Assembly: GCA_000403255.2 (NCBI GenBank)
Contig: KE159575.1
Location: 1-61,713 of the forward strand
Source of the DNA: Lachnospiraceae bacterium 3-1
GTDB lineage: Bacteria > Bacillota > Clostridia > Lachnospirales > Lachnospiraceae
Reading direction: 5' to 3'
DNA length: 61,713 nucleotides
This document shows positions 17,606 through 29,527 of the stretch, piece after piece. Under the pieces are notes generated by a model. It saw only the letters and a list, made by a program, of their open reading frames with translations, did no database searches and had not been told where the DNA came from. The position numbers and the translations under genes are program-made. Positions within the stretch are counted from its first letter, which is position 1, and every line of letters begins with the position of its first letter.

Positions 17606-18211
17606 CTACAATTCTTCTGCCTTAAAGGTATTATATCCTTCATAATAATAGCTTACATCAATACCTTTCATATATACTTCCCTATCATCTATCTGATCTG
17701 TTAATGCGTTCTTCAGTAAAACCTTAATTTCAACATCCTTAATCGGACTTCTTTCCATAGCAAGCAAATAGTCTTCTTTATCGACTCGGTTCCAGTCTAT
17801 AACTAATTTTAATTCTTTTTTTAAAATCAAGTCCAGCCATATGCGTGTGCTTCTCCCATTCCCTTCCCTAAAAGGATGTGCAACATTCATTTCCACATAT
17901 TTTTCAATTATTTCATCAAAATTAGATTGTGGCATATCATCAATATGTTTTAGTGCAACGTCCAAATACATTACAGGAGCAAACCTAAAATTACCTTTTG
18001 CAATATTTACTGTCCTAACTTTTCCCGCAAAATCATATATTTTTTCAAACAAAAATTTATGAATTTTGGCAAGCCCAGAAAATTTTCCAATTTCGCAATT
18101 TTCAACAATGTTACTTTCATATAATTTAATGGCTTTAGTTTTACTTATTCTCTCTTCTACTCTTGCGAGTTCTGTCGAATCATTGATACCTAATTTATTT
18201 TCCAGAGCCAT
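17606..18211 (-). CDS. fic: Fic-domain AMP-transferase (class III, self-inhibited)
   Basis: A 201-residue Fic protein with the complete active-site motif HPFREGNGRSTR (about residues 109-120), for transfer of AMP to target proteins. The C-terminus contains SYYYEGY, matching the inhibitory [S/T]xxxE[G/N] helix; a C-terminal location is the class III arrangement known from NmFic, which is regulated by oligomer state. The start at 18209-18211 has GGAGG six bases upstream. It is the last gene of a minus-strand operon whose preceding gene is split by an IS, so expression may be polar-affected. Possible toxin or phage-defence role. Confidence 0.88.
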   Translation of the reverse strand: MALENKLGINDSTELARVEERISKTKAIKLYESNIVENCEIGKFSGLAKIHKFLFEKIYDFAGKVRTVNIAKGNFRFAPVMYLDVALKHIDDMPQSNFDEIIEKYVEMNVAHPFREGNGRSTRIWLDLILKKELKLVIDWNRVDKEDYLLAMERSPIKDVEIKVLLKNALTDQIDDREVYMKGIDVSYYYEGYNTFKAEEL

Positions 18212-18309
18212 ACTACCCTCCATAAATCTATTATTCTATTGGCATATCGCCATCAAAGTTCCCTTTTGCACTATAAACTAATATGATTGTACTTCCATCC
18301 TTGATATAA

Positions 18310-20973: not shown

Positions 20974-22360
20974 ATGATAACACATAAACAGCTCTCTTTG
21001 GCAGATATTTTTACCGATTGCCAAAATAAATTTGATTATGATAAATATCAGTTCCTTGAACTTCTCGAAAATACCATTAACCTTGATGAACTTCTCGAAA
21101 ATACCATTAACCTTGATGAAATTGTCCCGGCGTCTTTTGTTTCTCATTTCCATGCCGCCACCGGCAGGCCACGTAAGCATCTTCTCTATCCGATGCTCAG
21201 GGCTCTGTTATTACAGCTTATTTTCTCGGTCCCAACAACGTCCCTTCTGATTGTTTTTCTCAAATACTCCCAGAAACTGCGGGACTTCTGCGGGTTTGAT
21301 GTTGTCCCGGATGCCTCTAAATTCACCCGCTTCAAACAGGATTTTTTATCGGACTTACAATCCATGTTCGATCATCTTGTTGACTTAACCGAACCGGTCT
21401 GCCATTGTATTGATACACAAAAGGCCTCCATGCTTCTCTTTGACACATCCAGTATTGAGGCATGGGTAACAGAAAACAATCCCAAATATGCAAACCGTAT
21501 CATCAAACAACTGAAAGCCTTCAAAAAAGCAAAAGGAATGGACGGTTCCTTTGAGCCTTATAAAGCCGCTTACGGCTCCATGCCTTCCCATGCCGCCGCC
21601 AATCCAGCCATTCAGCAGATGTGCATTAACGGGCATTTCTGTTATGCTTATAAATTCGGCATTATGACCAACGGACTCGGCATTGTCCGGGATATTTCCT
21701 TTTATAACAAGGACTTTCTTGAGGCTCATCCTGACATCATTGCTGGAAAAAAATCTGATTCCCCGGATGAAGATAAGAGTCTTGCCGATTCCAAGGCATT
21801 GATTCCCACTTTAAAGGATTTCTTTCGGAAGCATCCCCTTATCAATCCGAAAACTTTTCTGGGAGACGCCGCATTTGATTCCATTGAACTCTACAAATGC
21901 CTGTTACAGGAAGCTTCCTTTGAGCAGGCTTACATTCCCCTCAACGACAGAATCTCCCTTCCAAAATCCGACTGCCCGCTGAATAAGGACGGCGTCCCCT
22001 GCTGCCCCAAAGACCCATCCCTTCCAATGAAACGGGAAGGAAGCAAATCCCATCTCCGCTGCGGGCTGCCAACCATGAAGTTTGTATGCCCGAAAATGAA
22101 ATGGGAGTGGAACAAACTTACAAAGAAATCAAAACGCGTCTGCCACTGTGAAAATCCCTGTACGGAATCCCCCTGAGGCAGGATGTTTCCTATTTATCCC
22201 GAGAAAAACCTGCGCGCCTATCCCGGTACACTCCGGGGTACGGCCGGATGGGATTCCACCTATAAGATCAGGGGAAATGTGGAAAAATCCATCAACCATT
22301 TCAAGGACAGTTTCTGTGCTGCCGGGCGTAAAACGCAGAATGAAAAAACGCTTCATGCGG
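20974..22360 (+). pseudogene. IS1182-family transposase: nonsense mutation and 3' truncation
   Basis: The first 400 codons read as an IS1182 DDE transposase: LLYPMLRALLLQLIFSVPTT, LLFDTSSIEAWVTENNPKYA, YAYKFGIMTNGLGIV and FLGDAAFDSIELYKCL. An in-frame TGA (22174-22176), where the family has a cysteine codon, is followed in the same frame by RMFPIYPEKNLRAYPGTLRG and YKIRGNVEKSINHFKDSF, which includes the final catalytic glutamate. Homology stops at about 22360, at the edge of the CpG-free island. A 30-bp exact tandem duplication (21058-21087 and 21088-21117) doubles LLENTINLDE. Confidence 0.85.
21058..21117. repeat. 30-bp exact tandem duplication inside the IS1182 transposase
   Basis: Two identical 30-bp copies, in frame, add ten residues to the transposase N-terminus. 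This is probably a replication-slippage product. Confidence 0.9.
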
Positions 22361-22989
22361 AAACTCTGTGCATTTTCTTCAAATTGGGGCAGGAAGTCTT
22401 CCCCAGTGTCATAATGGAGATACAGCCCCTTAAAACATGCCTGCCATGCAAGCTGCATTACATGGGGGCTGGCTTTCATTTCTAATCTTCTGTAAGCCAT
22501 GCTTGTTTCCACAATAATTTTCTGCCACATAATGAAAAATTCATCTTGTAAGGGAATCCCAAAAACCCCCAGCCATCCCCTTACAGTGTGCCTTTCTGTG
22601 GCATCCCCACATCCTGGTGTGCTGAAAATGTATTGCACATCATCCACAGAAACATCCCTGATGTTCCCCTCTGTGTCACCCACTTGCAGGATCCTGCCTA
22701 TGGGGAACAGGGCACAGACAGATGGCTTGGATTTGTGGACTGAGCATTTCCTGTCTTTCAGCAGGGGGCATCTTTTCACATGACCCTTGGGTTTGACCCT
22801 CACAATGGGGACCCTTGAGTCTTCCCCTGCATAAACCTCACAATACTTTTTTACCAACTTTTCTGGGGACATGCCCAGTTCCCTGGACATATTGTAGACA
22901 TCCTTGGGGTTCAATAAAATGTCTTCCCTATGGGTGCAGCATTTTCCACAGCATGTACAATGGAATTTAAACTCTTCATCAATGCCAAT
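22129..22989 (-). pseudogene. YkgJ-family cysteine-cluster protein, 3' end replaced by IS DNA
   Basis: The protein carries the metal-binding clusters HCTCCGKCCTHREDI near the N-terminus and RCPLLKDRKCSVHKSKPSVC later, typical of YkgJ Zn/Fe-chelating proteins. The N-terminal cluster is encoded upstream of the first TTG (22914). Between the preceding stop (23005) and HCTCC there is no ATG, GTG or TTG, only ATT codons at 22987-22989 and 22981-22983, the first seven bases after AAGGTGG. From about 22360 (after NAQSF) the frame runs into antisense IS1182 sequence, so the last 75 residues are foreign. The entire authentic part lacks CpG. Confidence 0.6.
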
Positions 22990-23004
22990 CTGCCTGCCAC
23001 CTTT

Positions 23005-23412
23005 TTATCCCCCACAGTTTTTGGGTTTTCCCCATTGCCCACACTTACAGGCTCCAGGTCTTTTTTCTCCACTGCCACCTCCATCAAGCCTTTCTATTGA
23101 GAGCATCCTTATGATCTGGTCTGCATAAGGGAACAGGCTGTCATAGCACTTCAACTGTTCCTTTTTTGGAAATTTGCCATTCCTAATGCCATCCACATGG
23201 AAAATTCCCTCCAAAACCAGCTTAAGGCAGAATTTACTGGGACCCTTCATCCCCAAATATTGTTCCAGCACTGCCACTGCCATGTCTTCTCCTGGTTCAA
23301 AACTGACAGAAAATTCCATATGGTCTGACAGCCTGACCTCCCCAGACTCTTCCAGTTCATTCAGCAGCTCCAGCCTGCTTACCTTGTAGCCTAACAGTTC
23401 TACTTTGCCCAT
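23005..23412 (-). CDS. SecB-like/unknown protein
   Basis: A 135-residue protein. The central part (FCLKLVLEGIFHVDGI followed by KKEQLKCYDSLFPYADQI) resembles the beta-sheet plus helix core of SecB-like chaperones, in which F.L.L.LEG.F and a later LFPY are conserved. The C-terminus (GACKCGQWGKPKNCGG) is unusual and could bind metal. It ends just 16 bases before the presumed YkgJ start, so the two are co-transcribed. The assignment is tentative. The gene lies entirely in the CpG-free island. Confidence 0.45.
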   Translation of the reverse strand: MGKVELLGYKVSRLELLNELEESGEVRLSDHMEFSVSFEPGEDMAVAVLEQYLGMKGPSKFCLKLVLEGIFHVDGIRNGKFPKKEQLKCYDSLFPYADQIIRMLSIERLDGGGSGEKRPGACKCGQWGKPKNCGG

Positions 23413-23617
23413 CTTCCTCCTTTTCCCAGTCTAATCCTTGCATTTCATTGCTGCCCTGCAAGCATACCATAAGAAATCTCCCTATAAACCCTGCAAAAAC
23501 CAGTCCTTGCCCTTTAAAAATCCACAAAAAAGGCAGGACAGCACATTTCTGTGAATCCTGCTTCTCTCATACTTTTATGAAAATTTCTCACATATAAATA
23601 ATAGAACCTGTCAAAAT

Positions 23618-24458
23618 CTATGTTGCCATTTGTAACTTTTCTTTCTGGAGTTCCAATACAATTTCTCTGGATAACCCTGAATACCTAATAATCTTATCCA
23701 ATGGCTCATTCCCATGTATCATTTCCCTTGCCATCTGTATCTTTGTTGCATTTTCAGCCTCATACCTCTCACTTTCCACATAGGACCTCATCACTTCTTC
23801 CTGGTCATACAGTTCCATCAACATGTCCAGCACCTCCTGCTCTTTTCTTTCCAGATACTCCCTCAATACATTCCTGTCTTTACAAATCCTGATAGTTTCT
23901 TTAATAGCCTTCCTTGTCCTGCCATAAACCTTCACCTGCTCATTACACACTTTTGTGAATACTACATACTGGTTTATTATATCCCCCCTCTTTGCCATCA
24001 TATGTCATCTTAACATTCAAATCCAAACAAACTTCTTCCCCACCAAAAAATTCTGTTGACAGGGAAATCTGTTCTGGCCTTGTCTTCCTGTCTCCAGTAT
24101 AGATAACATAAACCTCTGGCTTTGGCATCCTTAGTTTTTTACTGTTATATATGTTCTGCCTGGTTTCACTGAAATATTCCCTGTATGTCTGCACCAGATA
24201 CATCAATGCCCTGAAAATAATATTCACAGTCCATGTGGACTGGCTTTCTATCAAAATCAATAAAGTTGAGCCTACCCTGAAGCCTATATCATTATAAATG
24301 TCATTTACAAGGACATTGCTGACTGTCACATCTTGCAGGTCATCTTCTGTAACACCCCTGTCCTCTGGGTGCAAAGCCTGATACAGTTGCATCAAATACT
24401 TTTTTCTTTGAATAATGAAGTAAAGACACTATCTTTCAGGGTGTGCTTTACTATCAAT
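23618..24458 (-). pseudogene. Rpn-family (PD-(D/E)XK) recombination-promoting nuclease, frameshifted in a G run
   Basis: The upstream frame gives KHTLKDSVFTSLLFKEKKYL, YQALHPEDRGVTEDDLQD, LLILIESQSTWTVNIIFRAL and PEVYVIYTGDR. The downstream frame continues with GDIINQYVVFTKVCNEQVKV and EYLERKEQEVLDMLMELYD. They meet at GAGGGGGGAT (G6, about 23985); with five G the frame would be continuous (DGKEGDIINQY), as in homologues. The probable start is a TTG at 24456-24458 without a clear ribosome site. These proteins promote RecA-independent recombination. The G-run could be phase-variable. Confidence 0.72.
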
Positions 24459-24520
24459 TGTTTTTATTTTCAATTTCAAAATCTGCCTGCCCACGACAAA
24501 CGCATGAATGTTTCTACCAT

Positions 24521-24950
24521 TCAAATTTTTCCAACTGTAATTTTTTTAAAGTCCAGCGCTTCCTCTAAATATTTGATTGGTGACAGACTTATTACAAACC
24601 TTTTTTTCTTCATTGATAATTTCTTTTTTGTAAGTTCTATCAGCTTTAGTATGCTTAAGCTCCATTTCCTGATTATATTCAGATTCTGCGCTGACATTTT
24701 ATCCAGTGTTGCGTTTACGTCTTCTCGAAATGTTACATTCAGATGCCAGTGCATGCTCTCTATGCTCCAATGCCCTCTTACTGCCCGGCTTATGGTTTCT
24801 ATGTCCCCTTTTAGGCTGCTGATAAAATAGCGGCATTCCGTTTTCTTTCTCCCATTCTTTTCTATTCTTTTTCTTTCGTTTTCTTATAATTTCCTGATTT
24901 TTCTATCTCTCTGGTTCGTTCTTTATCTGCAAAATACTCTTTTGGATCTA
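24521..24950 (-). pseudogene. ISAs1-family transposase C-terminal remnant
   Basis: The translated segments RYFISSLKGDIETISRAVRG and HWSIESMHWHLNVTFREDVN, followed by NLNIIRKWSLSIL, are the conserved C-terminal DDE region of ISAs1 transposases. The upstream part is missing or broken by stops. It forms the right border of the CpG-free island. Confidence 0.75.
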
Positions 24951-28163: not shown

Positions 28164-28730
28164 CTACTTATCCAGAAAATCCCAGAACTGCTTATAATCC
28201 AGATATCCTTTCAGATTCCCGGCATCATACTGCGTCTGCATGGCATCCTTTAAAACGCTGATCCAGTCTTTCATCCCGAACAGGTCATCATGTGTCCTGT
28301 TGTCAGCGCCATGCTGATTTGCCCCTGCCCTGATAAAAGCGGACTGTGCGCCCGGACATTCCCCGCTTGCCGATAAGTGGCTGGAATATGTAAACATATC
28401 AATATAATCACTGCCCATTGTATCAACTTTTGACACATCCACCATGCGTTCTGTCACATTTCCGTCTTTATCCCATACCTTCACCTTATATACCGGATTC
28501 GCAGGGTCAAAGTCCTTTGGCTGGTAGACCGTAAGGGAATAATCCGCCCCGCACATTGAGCCGATTGACTTTCCATCCTTATCGTTTGAAATATGTAACT
28601 CAAATGTTCCGCCGGATGACTGTGCTGCCGGAACCATGTTGCACATCTGGTCAGCATAATTCCTTCTTGCCCTTCTTGTCTCATACCCTGCTGCCGGGTA
28701 TCCTGCTGCTCCTATTCCATTAACATTCAT
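28164..28730 (-). CDS. Unknown MNVNGIG-type protein 1
   Basis: A 188-residue protein beginning MNVNGIGAAGYPAAGYETRR. It shares this N-terminus with the next gene (28982-29527), while the rest diverges. It has no signal peptide or membrane segment; the middle is strand-rich (TFELHISNDKDGKSIG) and the end helical (LKGYLDYKQFWDFLDK, matching YWDFMNKK of the paralogue). GAGGGTGAAAGG precedes the ATG. It lies downstream of the AgrC/AgrA-type genes in the same orientation. Function is unknown; a conserved Gly-rich start with an intact helical end suggests a recognition or export role for the N-terminus (inference). Confidence 0.65.
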   Translation of the reverse strand: MNVNGIGAAGYPAAGYETRRARRNYADQMCNMVPAAQSSGGTFELHISNDKDGKSIGSMCGADYSLTVYQPKDFDPANPVYKVKVWDKDGNVTERMVDVSKVDTMGSDYIDMFTYSSHLSASGECPGAQSAFIRAGANQHGADNRTHDDLFGMKDWISVLKDAMQTQYDAGNLKGYLDYKQFWDFLDK

Positions 28731-28981
28731 TTCCTTTCACCCTCCATTATTTTTAATATTGCGGCTCCTCTGTCGGTCAGAGCCGCCCCTGCTCTCTTGA
28801 TCTAAGTCCGAGCAGTTTATTGCTCCATGCAAATGTGCTTTATTTATGTTCCTCGGTCAAATTCCATACCGACTTTCACCTCCGTTCACTGCTCCCCGAT
28901 TCCCCAATCTGCCGGAACGCCGGGGATGCCTGCCCTGCCTTGTCAGACTGTGGCTTATCGGGGATATACGTCTATTGGATT

Positions 28982-29527
28982 CTATTTCTTGTTCATAAAA
29001 TCCCAATATGCCTGCATACTGTACTGATAGTATGCCGCCGCTTTTTTCTGGCTCAACAGTTTCATATCGCTAATCTGCTTTTGGAACATATCCATGAAAT
29101 TGGTCCTATCGTTCAATCCCATCATTCCCGTTTCAGGCGGTAATGATGTAAGCCCTCCATTCTTATCTACACCCATATAGGATTCCAATGCTGTCATTTC
29201 CACTAATGAAGCATTCCGGGGATTTATCTTGTTGATATGTATGGTCTGCTCAAATTCATTCCCATTCTCATCAACACCTTTTGCAATCACAGTCGGATCA
29301 TCCTCTGTTGAGCCTTCCGCATATTTGATGTAGAAAGACAGCCCTGTCCCGTTACCGCCAGAGTACAGCATATCATCCGTTTTCATATAGACAATAGATG
29401 TATGTGGCTTTGCGCCTGCCACATTGTTTACCTGCTCCGCAAAACTCCTTCCTGCCGCATTCTGCTGTGCCTTTCTTGCTCCCTGCCATGCCGGATATCC
29501 TGTTGTTCCTATTCCATTTACGTTCAT
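28982..29527 (-). CDS. Unknown MNVNGIG-type protein 2
   Basis: A 181-residue paralogue of the preceding entry: MNVNGIGTTGYPAWQGARKA with a following SFAEQVNNV motif, a beta-rich middle and a C-terminal QYSMQAYWDFMNKK. It lies 55 bp after the histidine kinase gene with its own GGAGG site. A 7-bp stem (GCGGCTC/GAGCCGC, 28761-28786) lies between the paralogues; otherwise the 250-bp gap holds nothing. The pair is the likely output of the neighbouring two-component system. Confidence 0.65.
   Translation of the reverse strand: MNVNGIGTTGYPAWQGARKAQQNAAGRSFAEQVNNVAGAKPHTSIVYMKTDDMLYSGGNGTGLSFYIKYAEGSTEDDPTVIAKGVDENGNEFEQTIHINKINPRNASLVEMTALESYMGVDKNGGLTSLPPETGMMGLNDRTNFMDMFQKQISDMKLLSQKKAAAYYQYSMQAYWDFMNKK

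Follow-up and report, generated by a model that had tools for sequence, protein, structure and literature searches.

Loss of the CpG dinucleotide through methylation of cytosine followed by deamination is well known from vertebrates, and CpG methyltransferases such as M.SssI have been described. Tn7 and Tn7-like transposons are characterised by TnsABC together with TniQ/TnsD. Avoidance of type II restriction sites is known from plasmids and phages; for plasmids it has been surveyed by Shaw et al. 2023 (PMC10359461) and, in the part of that survey drawn on here, plasmid genes avoid 6-bp but not 4-bp targets. CpG depletion within the Clostridia is also the topic of a study of Clostridium difficile (PMC6141142), which by its title deals with CpG-depleted ribotypes rather than with mobile DNA residing in hosts of normal CpG content. 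The DNA considered here is a 61,713-nucleotide stretch of contig KE159575.1 from Lachnospiraceae bacterium 3-1 (the window), in which an island lacking CpG altogether is almost certainly a fragment, now decayed, of a Tn7-like mobile element. What is unusual is that an element 35 kb or more in length avoids an entire dinucleotide; among the matches listed in a literature search, none reported a CpG-free bacterial mobile element.

The zero-CpG stretch of 2.13 kb had been described in a sequence-only reading of this DNA and was borne out by a count over the window, in which a CpG at 22358 is followed by the next only at 24494. Positions 22360-24493 hold no CpG against 87.6 expected from their C and G content, and the second-longest gap without CpG in the window is 225 bp. 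The lowest count was 55 across 2,000 first-order Markov simulations modelled on the flanks, and 65 across 2,000 mononucleotide shuffles. The avoidance of NCG and CGN codons (arginine being encoded by AGR only), to which the same reading had drawn attention, follows from the absence of CpG. Two insertion sequence (IS) remnants end at the edges, which is why these are sharp: on the left, a match to G000:C2:79722-79955 (G000 being the genome of the window) ends at 22361, and the right-hand match to the same genome starts at 24492. The placing of the borders at IS remnants thus held, but the proposed family names IS1182 and ISAs1 did not come from Pfam, where the left remnant matches DUF772 and the right-hand open reading frame (ORF; 24521-24754) has no match. 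Transfer mediated by these IS, which had been thought likely, is less favoured. The remnants look like a later truncation of the element, since homology simply stops at their ends, and transposition by Tns proteins would account for its mobility better.

The fragment matches six copies of the element in other Lachnospiraceae (L033, L034, L035, L037, L039 and L040), the long matches at 80-91% identity and one 38-bp match at 97%, in alignment blocks at 22359-23001, about 22992/23042-24455 and 24453-24490. There are no tns genes in 22362-24490, which is cargo only, and the piece is assigned to a Tn7-like element because it is homologous to cargo on the tns-bearing contig G013:C33. That contig is CpG-free or nearly so across its whole length, as are G004:C28, G004:C37, G004:C38 and G027:C133, and G027:C57 is so except for its final 1.8 kb. 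Six genomes in all (G000, G004, G013, G014, G023 and G027) were seen to carry CpG-free DNA belonging to the element, and TnsC homologues are present in 4 of 29 genomes of the genus. Pooled stretches amounting to 137,615 bp, which were picked as CpG-poor and include homologous copies side by side, hold 80 CpG against 6,253 expected; the pool omits the window, L040, L112 and two CpG-bearing pieces, namely an IS in A2 and a block of cargo in G004:C30. Host DNA, where sampled, is different. In G013 the seven element windows (CpG observed/expected (O/E) 0.00-0.07) are the seven lowest of 87 sampled 5-kb windows, the next-lowest value being 0.48 and the median 0.94.

A foreign source with extreme CpG avoidance, as originally proposed, is therefore supported by near-CpG-free relatives, but a CpG-free donor genome was rejected because sampled host DNA is CpG-normal; the source is instead a mobile element resident in CpG-ordinary hosts. 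The zero-CpG pattern does, technically, recur elsewhere in the genome of the window, at G000:C2:5242-8838 (L045), yet this second CpG-poor piece is a fragment of the same element. An ORF resembling a MobV-like relaxase (NCBIfam, under the cut-off) lies about 3 kb from it. Near-identical homologues in ordinary genomes were not found, the six remaining places of close homology (78-89% identity in protein) being CpG-free too. These were located with the YkgJ-like protein of the fragment, for which all six loci matched in the genome collection fall within CpG-free DNA. With the window's own copy counted, this protein has matches at 19 places in 14 of 61 genomes; seven places (78-99% identity) are in CpG-free DNA, and the remaining 12 (at most 55% identity) are in loci with CpG O/E of 0.51-1.13.

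As in Tn7, homologues of TnsB (E 7.7e-41 to Tn7 TnsB 7pik, residues 144-601), TnsC (E 1.2e-22 to Tn7 TnsC 7mbw, and also PF05621) and TniQ (PF06527, E 6.8e-18) are encoded in order, and repeated TGCCAAAAA sites are clustered at one end in four contigs, this being the only end defined. Tn7-like copies in other genera lie after a guaA-like gene in G131 and after an aldolase-like gene in G099 (genes named by eye). The element differs from Tn7 in its probable TnsA, which is very short (about 130-145 amino acids (aa)); this candidate is encoded near tnsB and conserved in five aligned copies, has no sequence match in PDB (the lowest E, 0.46, belongs to an unrelated protein) and gave a structure model of low confidence (predicted local distance difference test score 57). 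Near-total CpG loss, seen in all copies examined from the focal genus, is a further difference, as are replication-type genes in several copies, including a helicase in L054 (AAA_25, E 5.6e-23) and DnaB and primase domains in the G243 element. Because of these genes, it is plausible on sequence grounds that the element is exposed as a whole replicon. Cargo recognised by Pfam includes a T-Q ester adhesin of 2.4 thousand aa, signal peptidases, a PemK-type toxin, a serine resolvase and helix-turn-helix proteins. Searches with TnsC matched three stretches among viral contigs, none of them a relative, and 376 of 72,556 records in a plasmid collection, all below 60% identity and the best place among the matches listed at 26.7%.

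Several features of the element copies were observed alongside. Between tniQ and cargo, L035:12162-15250 is a CpG-free, non-coding stretch of some 3 kb that has numerous repeats, direct as well as inverted, and is possibly an origin region with iterons; L035 and L036 gave no Rfam match at gathering thresholds. The adhesin-like protein is encoded at L036:2979-10250 and L052:4438-11757, with seven T-Q ester domain matches (Pfam) in the L036 copy, and its gene holds more CpGs than the rest of the element, as though acquired later. GGG/CCC trinucleotides are 1.94 times as frequent in the focal CpG-free contigs as in the host and CCWGG is about twice as dense, neither of which is explained by CpG loss alone.

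The exclusion of CpG is long-standing. DNA identity between copies is mostly 74-95%, and across 42 pairs of seven genes synonymous divergence (dS) is 0.13-2.26, often about 1, with a ratio of non-synonymous to synonymous divergence (dN/dS) of 0.07-0.35, indicating purifying selection. Low dN/dS at high dS means that the genes have been in use, with CpG excluded throughout. Hand-chosen non-coding stretches of the element are equally empty (3 CpG sites in 20.5 kb). An IS within the A2 copy has ordinary CpG content and matches three other copies in A2 at 100%, and is therefore considered a newcomer. One CpG is retained in five copies (L033 10080, L034 9375, L035 9628, L037 5067 and L054 18114); in L033 it falls in the overlap of two ORFs, and its retention is read as dual-coding constraint. 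Among the 65 residual CpGs of the focal element, 20 are in GCGC context, against 2.0 expected from gains, and none is in CCGG.

Outside the focal genus, TnsC matches were found in 13 of 397 genomes of the family. Sequence contexts were compared at seven places in six of these (G099, G243 twice, G315, G131, G190 and G133), with the host sample being a single flank each for G315, G190 and G133; the other seven TnsC genomes, with loci of about 3-4 kb only, have CpG O/E of 0.78-1.02. In three of the six genera compared there is strong, lineage-specific loss of CG-core or GATC sites in the element and not in the host. The G131 element has 1 CCGG against 55 expected, 0 GCGC against 29 and 2 CGCG against 18; CCGG and GCGC together occur once in four 5-kb element windows, the median O/E being 1.38 over 82 windows. 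Relative to a 378-kb sample of host DNA, most other CG contexts in G131 reach 0.6 or more; with an 8-kb flank as reference, CCGA and ACGG are at about 0.3. A C5 methyltransferase with permuted motif order, behind a specificity-like domain (motifs by eye), is also encoded in this element, at L271:288-1913 (G131:C4, about 29.8-31.4 kb). In G243 the depleted context is VCGB, that is, CG with no T before it and no A after it (7 against 232 expected). TCG and CGA contexts stay at 0.7 or more overall; in the C137 copy they are close to 1 or higher, and in the C44 copy they range over 0.3-0.95. For VCGB, the eight lowest of 94 3-kb windows are all from the two contigs that carry the element, and two of these windows extend beyond its assumed edge. 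Since one T or A at either side is enough to spare the site, this pattern would fit an agent that recognises symmetric sites in double-stranded DNA, and not a deaminase acting on single strands. The G099 element has 1 GATC against 42.5 expected and is low in CG apart from GCGC and GCGG, and GATC is reduced in G190 (20 against 83).

About an even chance is given to the explanation that CpG has been kept out by restriction-type selection acting on the element during transfer. On this account the element would enter cells in which site-specific defences cleave DNA at sites with a CG core, and the chromosome would escape selection because it is protected inside its own cell. Host lineages would differ in the set of sites they impose on the element, and in the focal genus this set would extend to every CG, i.e. 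to the whole dinucleotide. In favour of restriction, depletion is confined to mobile DNA and spares the sampled host, and the lost sites are short, mostly palindromic and lineage-specific, with GATC among them. Loss of GATC in G099 is for the most part not attributable to cytosine deamination, because the largest gain among its neighbours is of the A-to-G/T-to-C type (+34, against +19 for cytosine-type changes). Lost CG in the focal element has been replaced by all alternatives (TG/CA x1.27, GG/CC x1.33, AG/CT x1.17). C5 methyltransferase matches (PF00145, fragments counted) number 22, 1, 11, 15, 7 and 13 in the six carriers, with G004 the exception at 1, and they are commoner there than in the 23 other genomes of the genus (Mann-Whitney p 0.006; 0.017 per Mb). 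The loss of short sites from mobile DNA but not from the host, in a lineage-specific manner, resembles type II restriction-site avoidance, although removal of a dinucleotide from at least 35 kb lies far outside the range reported in the consulted part of the plasmid survey (PMC10359461).

A number of observations weigh against restriction. No enzyme reading bare CG was found. McrBC was tried as the missing enzyme and rejected, being present in 9 of 29 genomes of the genus and in one of the six carriers. The leftover CpGs are mainly GCGC, while a prophage-like region in G013 avoids GCGC, so that ordinary host restriction-modification does not simply sum to the pattern; the candidate of a simple sum of host sites is weakened accordingly. 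The excess of CTGG/CCAG in the G131 element is the product expected of inner-C deamination. In the G133 element no tetramer falls under 0.3 of expected, and in the G315 element only three do; the C44 copy in G243 is also low in ACGA (0.32) and GCGA (0.44). The plasmid survey reports, in the part consulted, no added 4-bp avoidance in plasmids and adaptation of large plasmids by gene carriage (PMC10359461), which leaves the strength of the avoidance here unexplained. If an ordinary vector carries the element from cell to cell, cutting of that vector would weaken selection on the element. The number of PF00145 matches was also rejected as a predictor of depletion, because the counts fail to separate depleted hosts (G099 4, G243 3) from less depleted ones (G133 5, G119 2, G315 3, G131 2, G190 8).

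The G013 region in question (G013:C36, L258:1-20000) avoids GCGC, CGCG and GATC (0.15-0.24 of expected), with 16 GCGC against 105 expected. A reverse-transcriptase ORF there adjoins a possible variable protein and, by eye, the locus looks like a diversity-generating retroelement.

A more specific form of selection by restriction, held tentatively and possible rather than probable, is that the Tn7-like replicon lineage has become CG-blank as a general passport, evading cutters of both unmodified and methylated CG-core sites. If so, it would be a natural dinucleotide-recoded mobile genome, maintained by CG-reading defence common in gut Lachnospiraceae.

Methylation and deamination, somewhat unlikely as the cause, would require the element to have been long co-resident with a C5 methyltransferase, its own or that of its usual companion host, acting on CG-core sites, with 5-methylcytosine converted to T; each host chromosome would have been exposed only briefly and hence spared. 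As in vertebrates the loss is CpG-specific with a partial gain of TG/CA, but O/E in the element is 0.013, far under the values usual in vertebrates, and no methyltransferase was found in it. Of the single-change neighbours of the lost CCGG in the G131 element, CTGG/CCAG (188 against 82 expected) alone is in excess, as deamination predicts, yet this excess of 106 is twice the CCGG deficit of 54 and cannot all derive from lost CCGG. In codon boxes, lost NCG has gone to NCA (for proline, A 0.58 against host A 0.25 plus G 0.35) and lost C before G has gone to T, a result confounded in that codons sharing a transfer RNA would look alike. Between copies, CpG stands opposite its single-change alternatives by 31 transitions to 7 transversions (nine double changes dropped), against about 1.6:1 in general, but gain of CpG from TG/CA could produce the same excess. 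Intergenic TG/CA is raised (1.39 against 1.08 in the host), as is intergenic CC/GG (1.48 against 1.22), and over the focal element CG has been replaced by GG/CC as much as by TG/CA. The GATC loss in G099 is mostly not of cytosine type. The methyltransferase search, which covered PF00145-type enzymes and the element proteins scanned, found none among 18 element proteins scanned with Pfam; of the 11 PF00145 matches in G013, the 10 listed all lie elsewhere than on the element contig C33; and 0 of 30 methyltransferase loci examined, from well over 100 listed matches, is CpG-free. G004, with CpG-free DNA on four contigs, has a single weak C-terminal PF00145 match. A host C5 methyltransferase acting cell-wide was rejected, given that the chromosome would show its effect and that G004 has only this one weak, partial match.

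It is less probable again that a CG-directed agent belongs to the transposon family itself, either a nuclease or deaminase of the element or a CpG preference of its target complex, such that CpG loss confers self-immunity. The trait occurs in one Tn7-like family across several genera, the residual CpGs have the strong flank preferences described above, and an Rpn-like nuclease gene accompanies the focal copies. Against this, the site sets vary by lineage and include GATC in G099 and G190, the G133 element shows no depleted site, and ten focal proteins compared with PADLOC matched no known defence protein. Selection by the animal host through CpG sensing, or at the RNA level, is very improbable: five of the six records have names of a gut isolate or bin catalogue (MGBC) and a PemK-type toxin gene is among the cargo, but depletion affects the element and not sampled host DNA, most of the missing sites are palindromes and specific to a lineage, and avoidance in RNA is disfavoured because the 20.5 kb of untranslated DNA is as empty as the genes. 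An assembly or sampling artefact can be dismissed with near certainty, for although many source assemblies are fragmented, CpG-free DNA recurs in several genomes and is joined to CpG-bearing DNA within single contigs, namely the window, A2 (a 3.2-Mb scaffold) and G023:C3 (306 kb).

The content of the window fragment is given in the table below. The three genes originally proposed correspond to a YkgJ-like gene that is truncated, an ORF resembling SecB and an Rpn-like gene broken into two frames. The YkgJ-like gene matches PF03692 at E 0.00028 (21.9 bits, slightly under the curated cut-off of 23 bits), and its protein has 78-89% identity to homologues in CpG-free DNA. The window copies of the SecB-like and Rpn-like ORFs have no Pfam match; a longer SecB-like homologue (L033:1967-2413) matches PF02556 (E 5.7e-05) and an intact Rpn-like homologue (L033:2748-3653) matches TIGR01784 (E 2.8e-10), both under cut-off. 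At the deletion junction the alignment jumps from 829 to 1969 in L035 and from 872 to 1991 in L033. Elsewhere in the window, at 17606-18223 and 28164-29527, there are an ORF that resembles Fic, with the motif HPFREGNGR identified by eye, and two adjacent small proteins, each beginning MNVNGIG.

Table. Features in and beside the CpG-free island of the window.
Feature	Position	Strand	Basis or remark
Left IS remnant, DUF772 transposase	20974-22361	+	PF05598, E 4.3e-11
CpG-free fragment, almost certainly of a Tn7-like element	22362-24491	none	Zero CpG and homology; flanked by two IS remnants
YkgJ-like CxxCxxCC protein gene, C-terminus removed by IS end	22371-23001	-	PF03692
Internal deletion junction	23002-23041	none	About 1.1 kb extra (240-aa ORF) in other copies
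SecB-like ORF, 135 aa	23005-23412	-	Via longer homologue
Rpn-family nuclease-like gene, split over two frames	23618-24395	-	Overlapping ORFs 23618-24001 and 23943-24395
Right IS remnant	24492-24755	-	Match to G000:C2:89281-89344

The element amounts to a natural recoding experiment, in which mobile DNA of at least 35 kb has persisted for a long time nearly without one of the sixteen dinucleotides, in hosts that use CG freely. A strong pressure that reads CG is thereby indicated, one that can be traced through the graded series of elements found across genera. The sites missing from each element may thus record what its hosts attack or modify.

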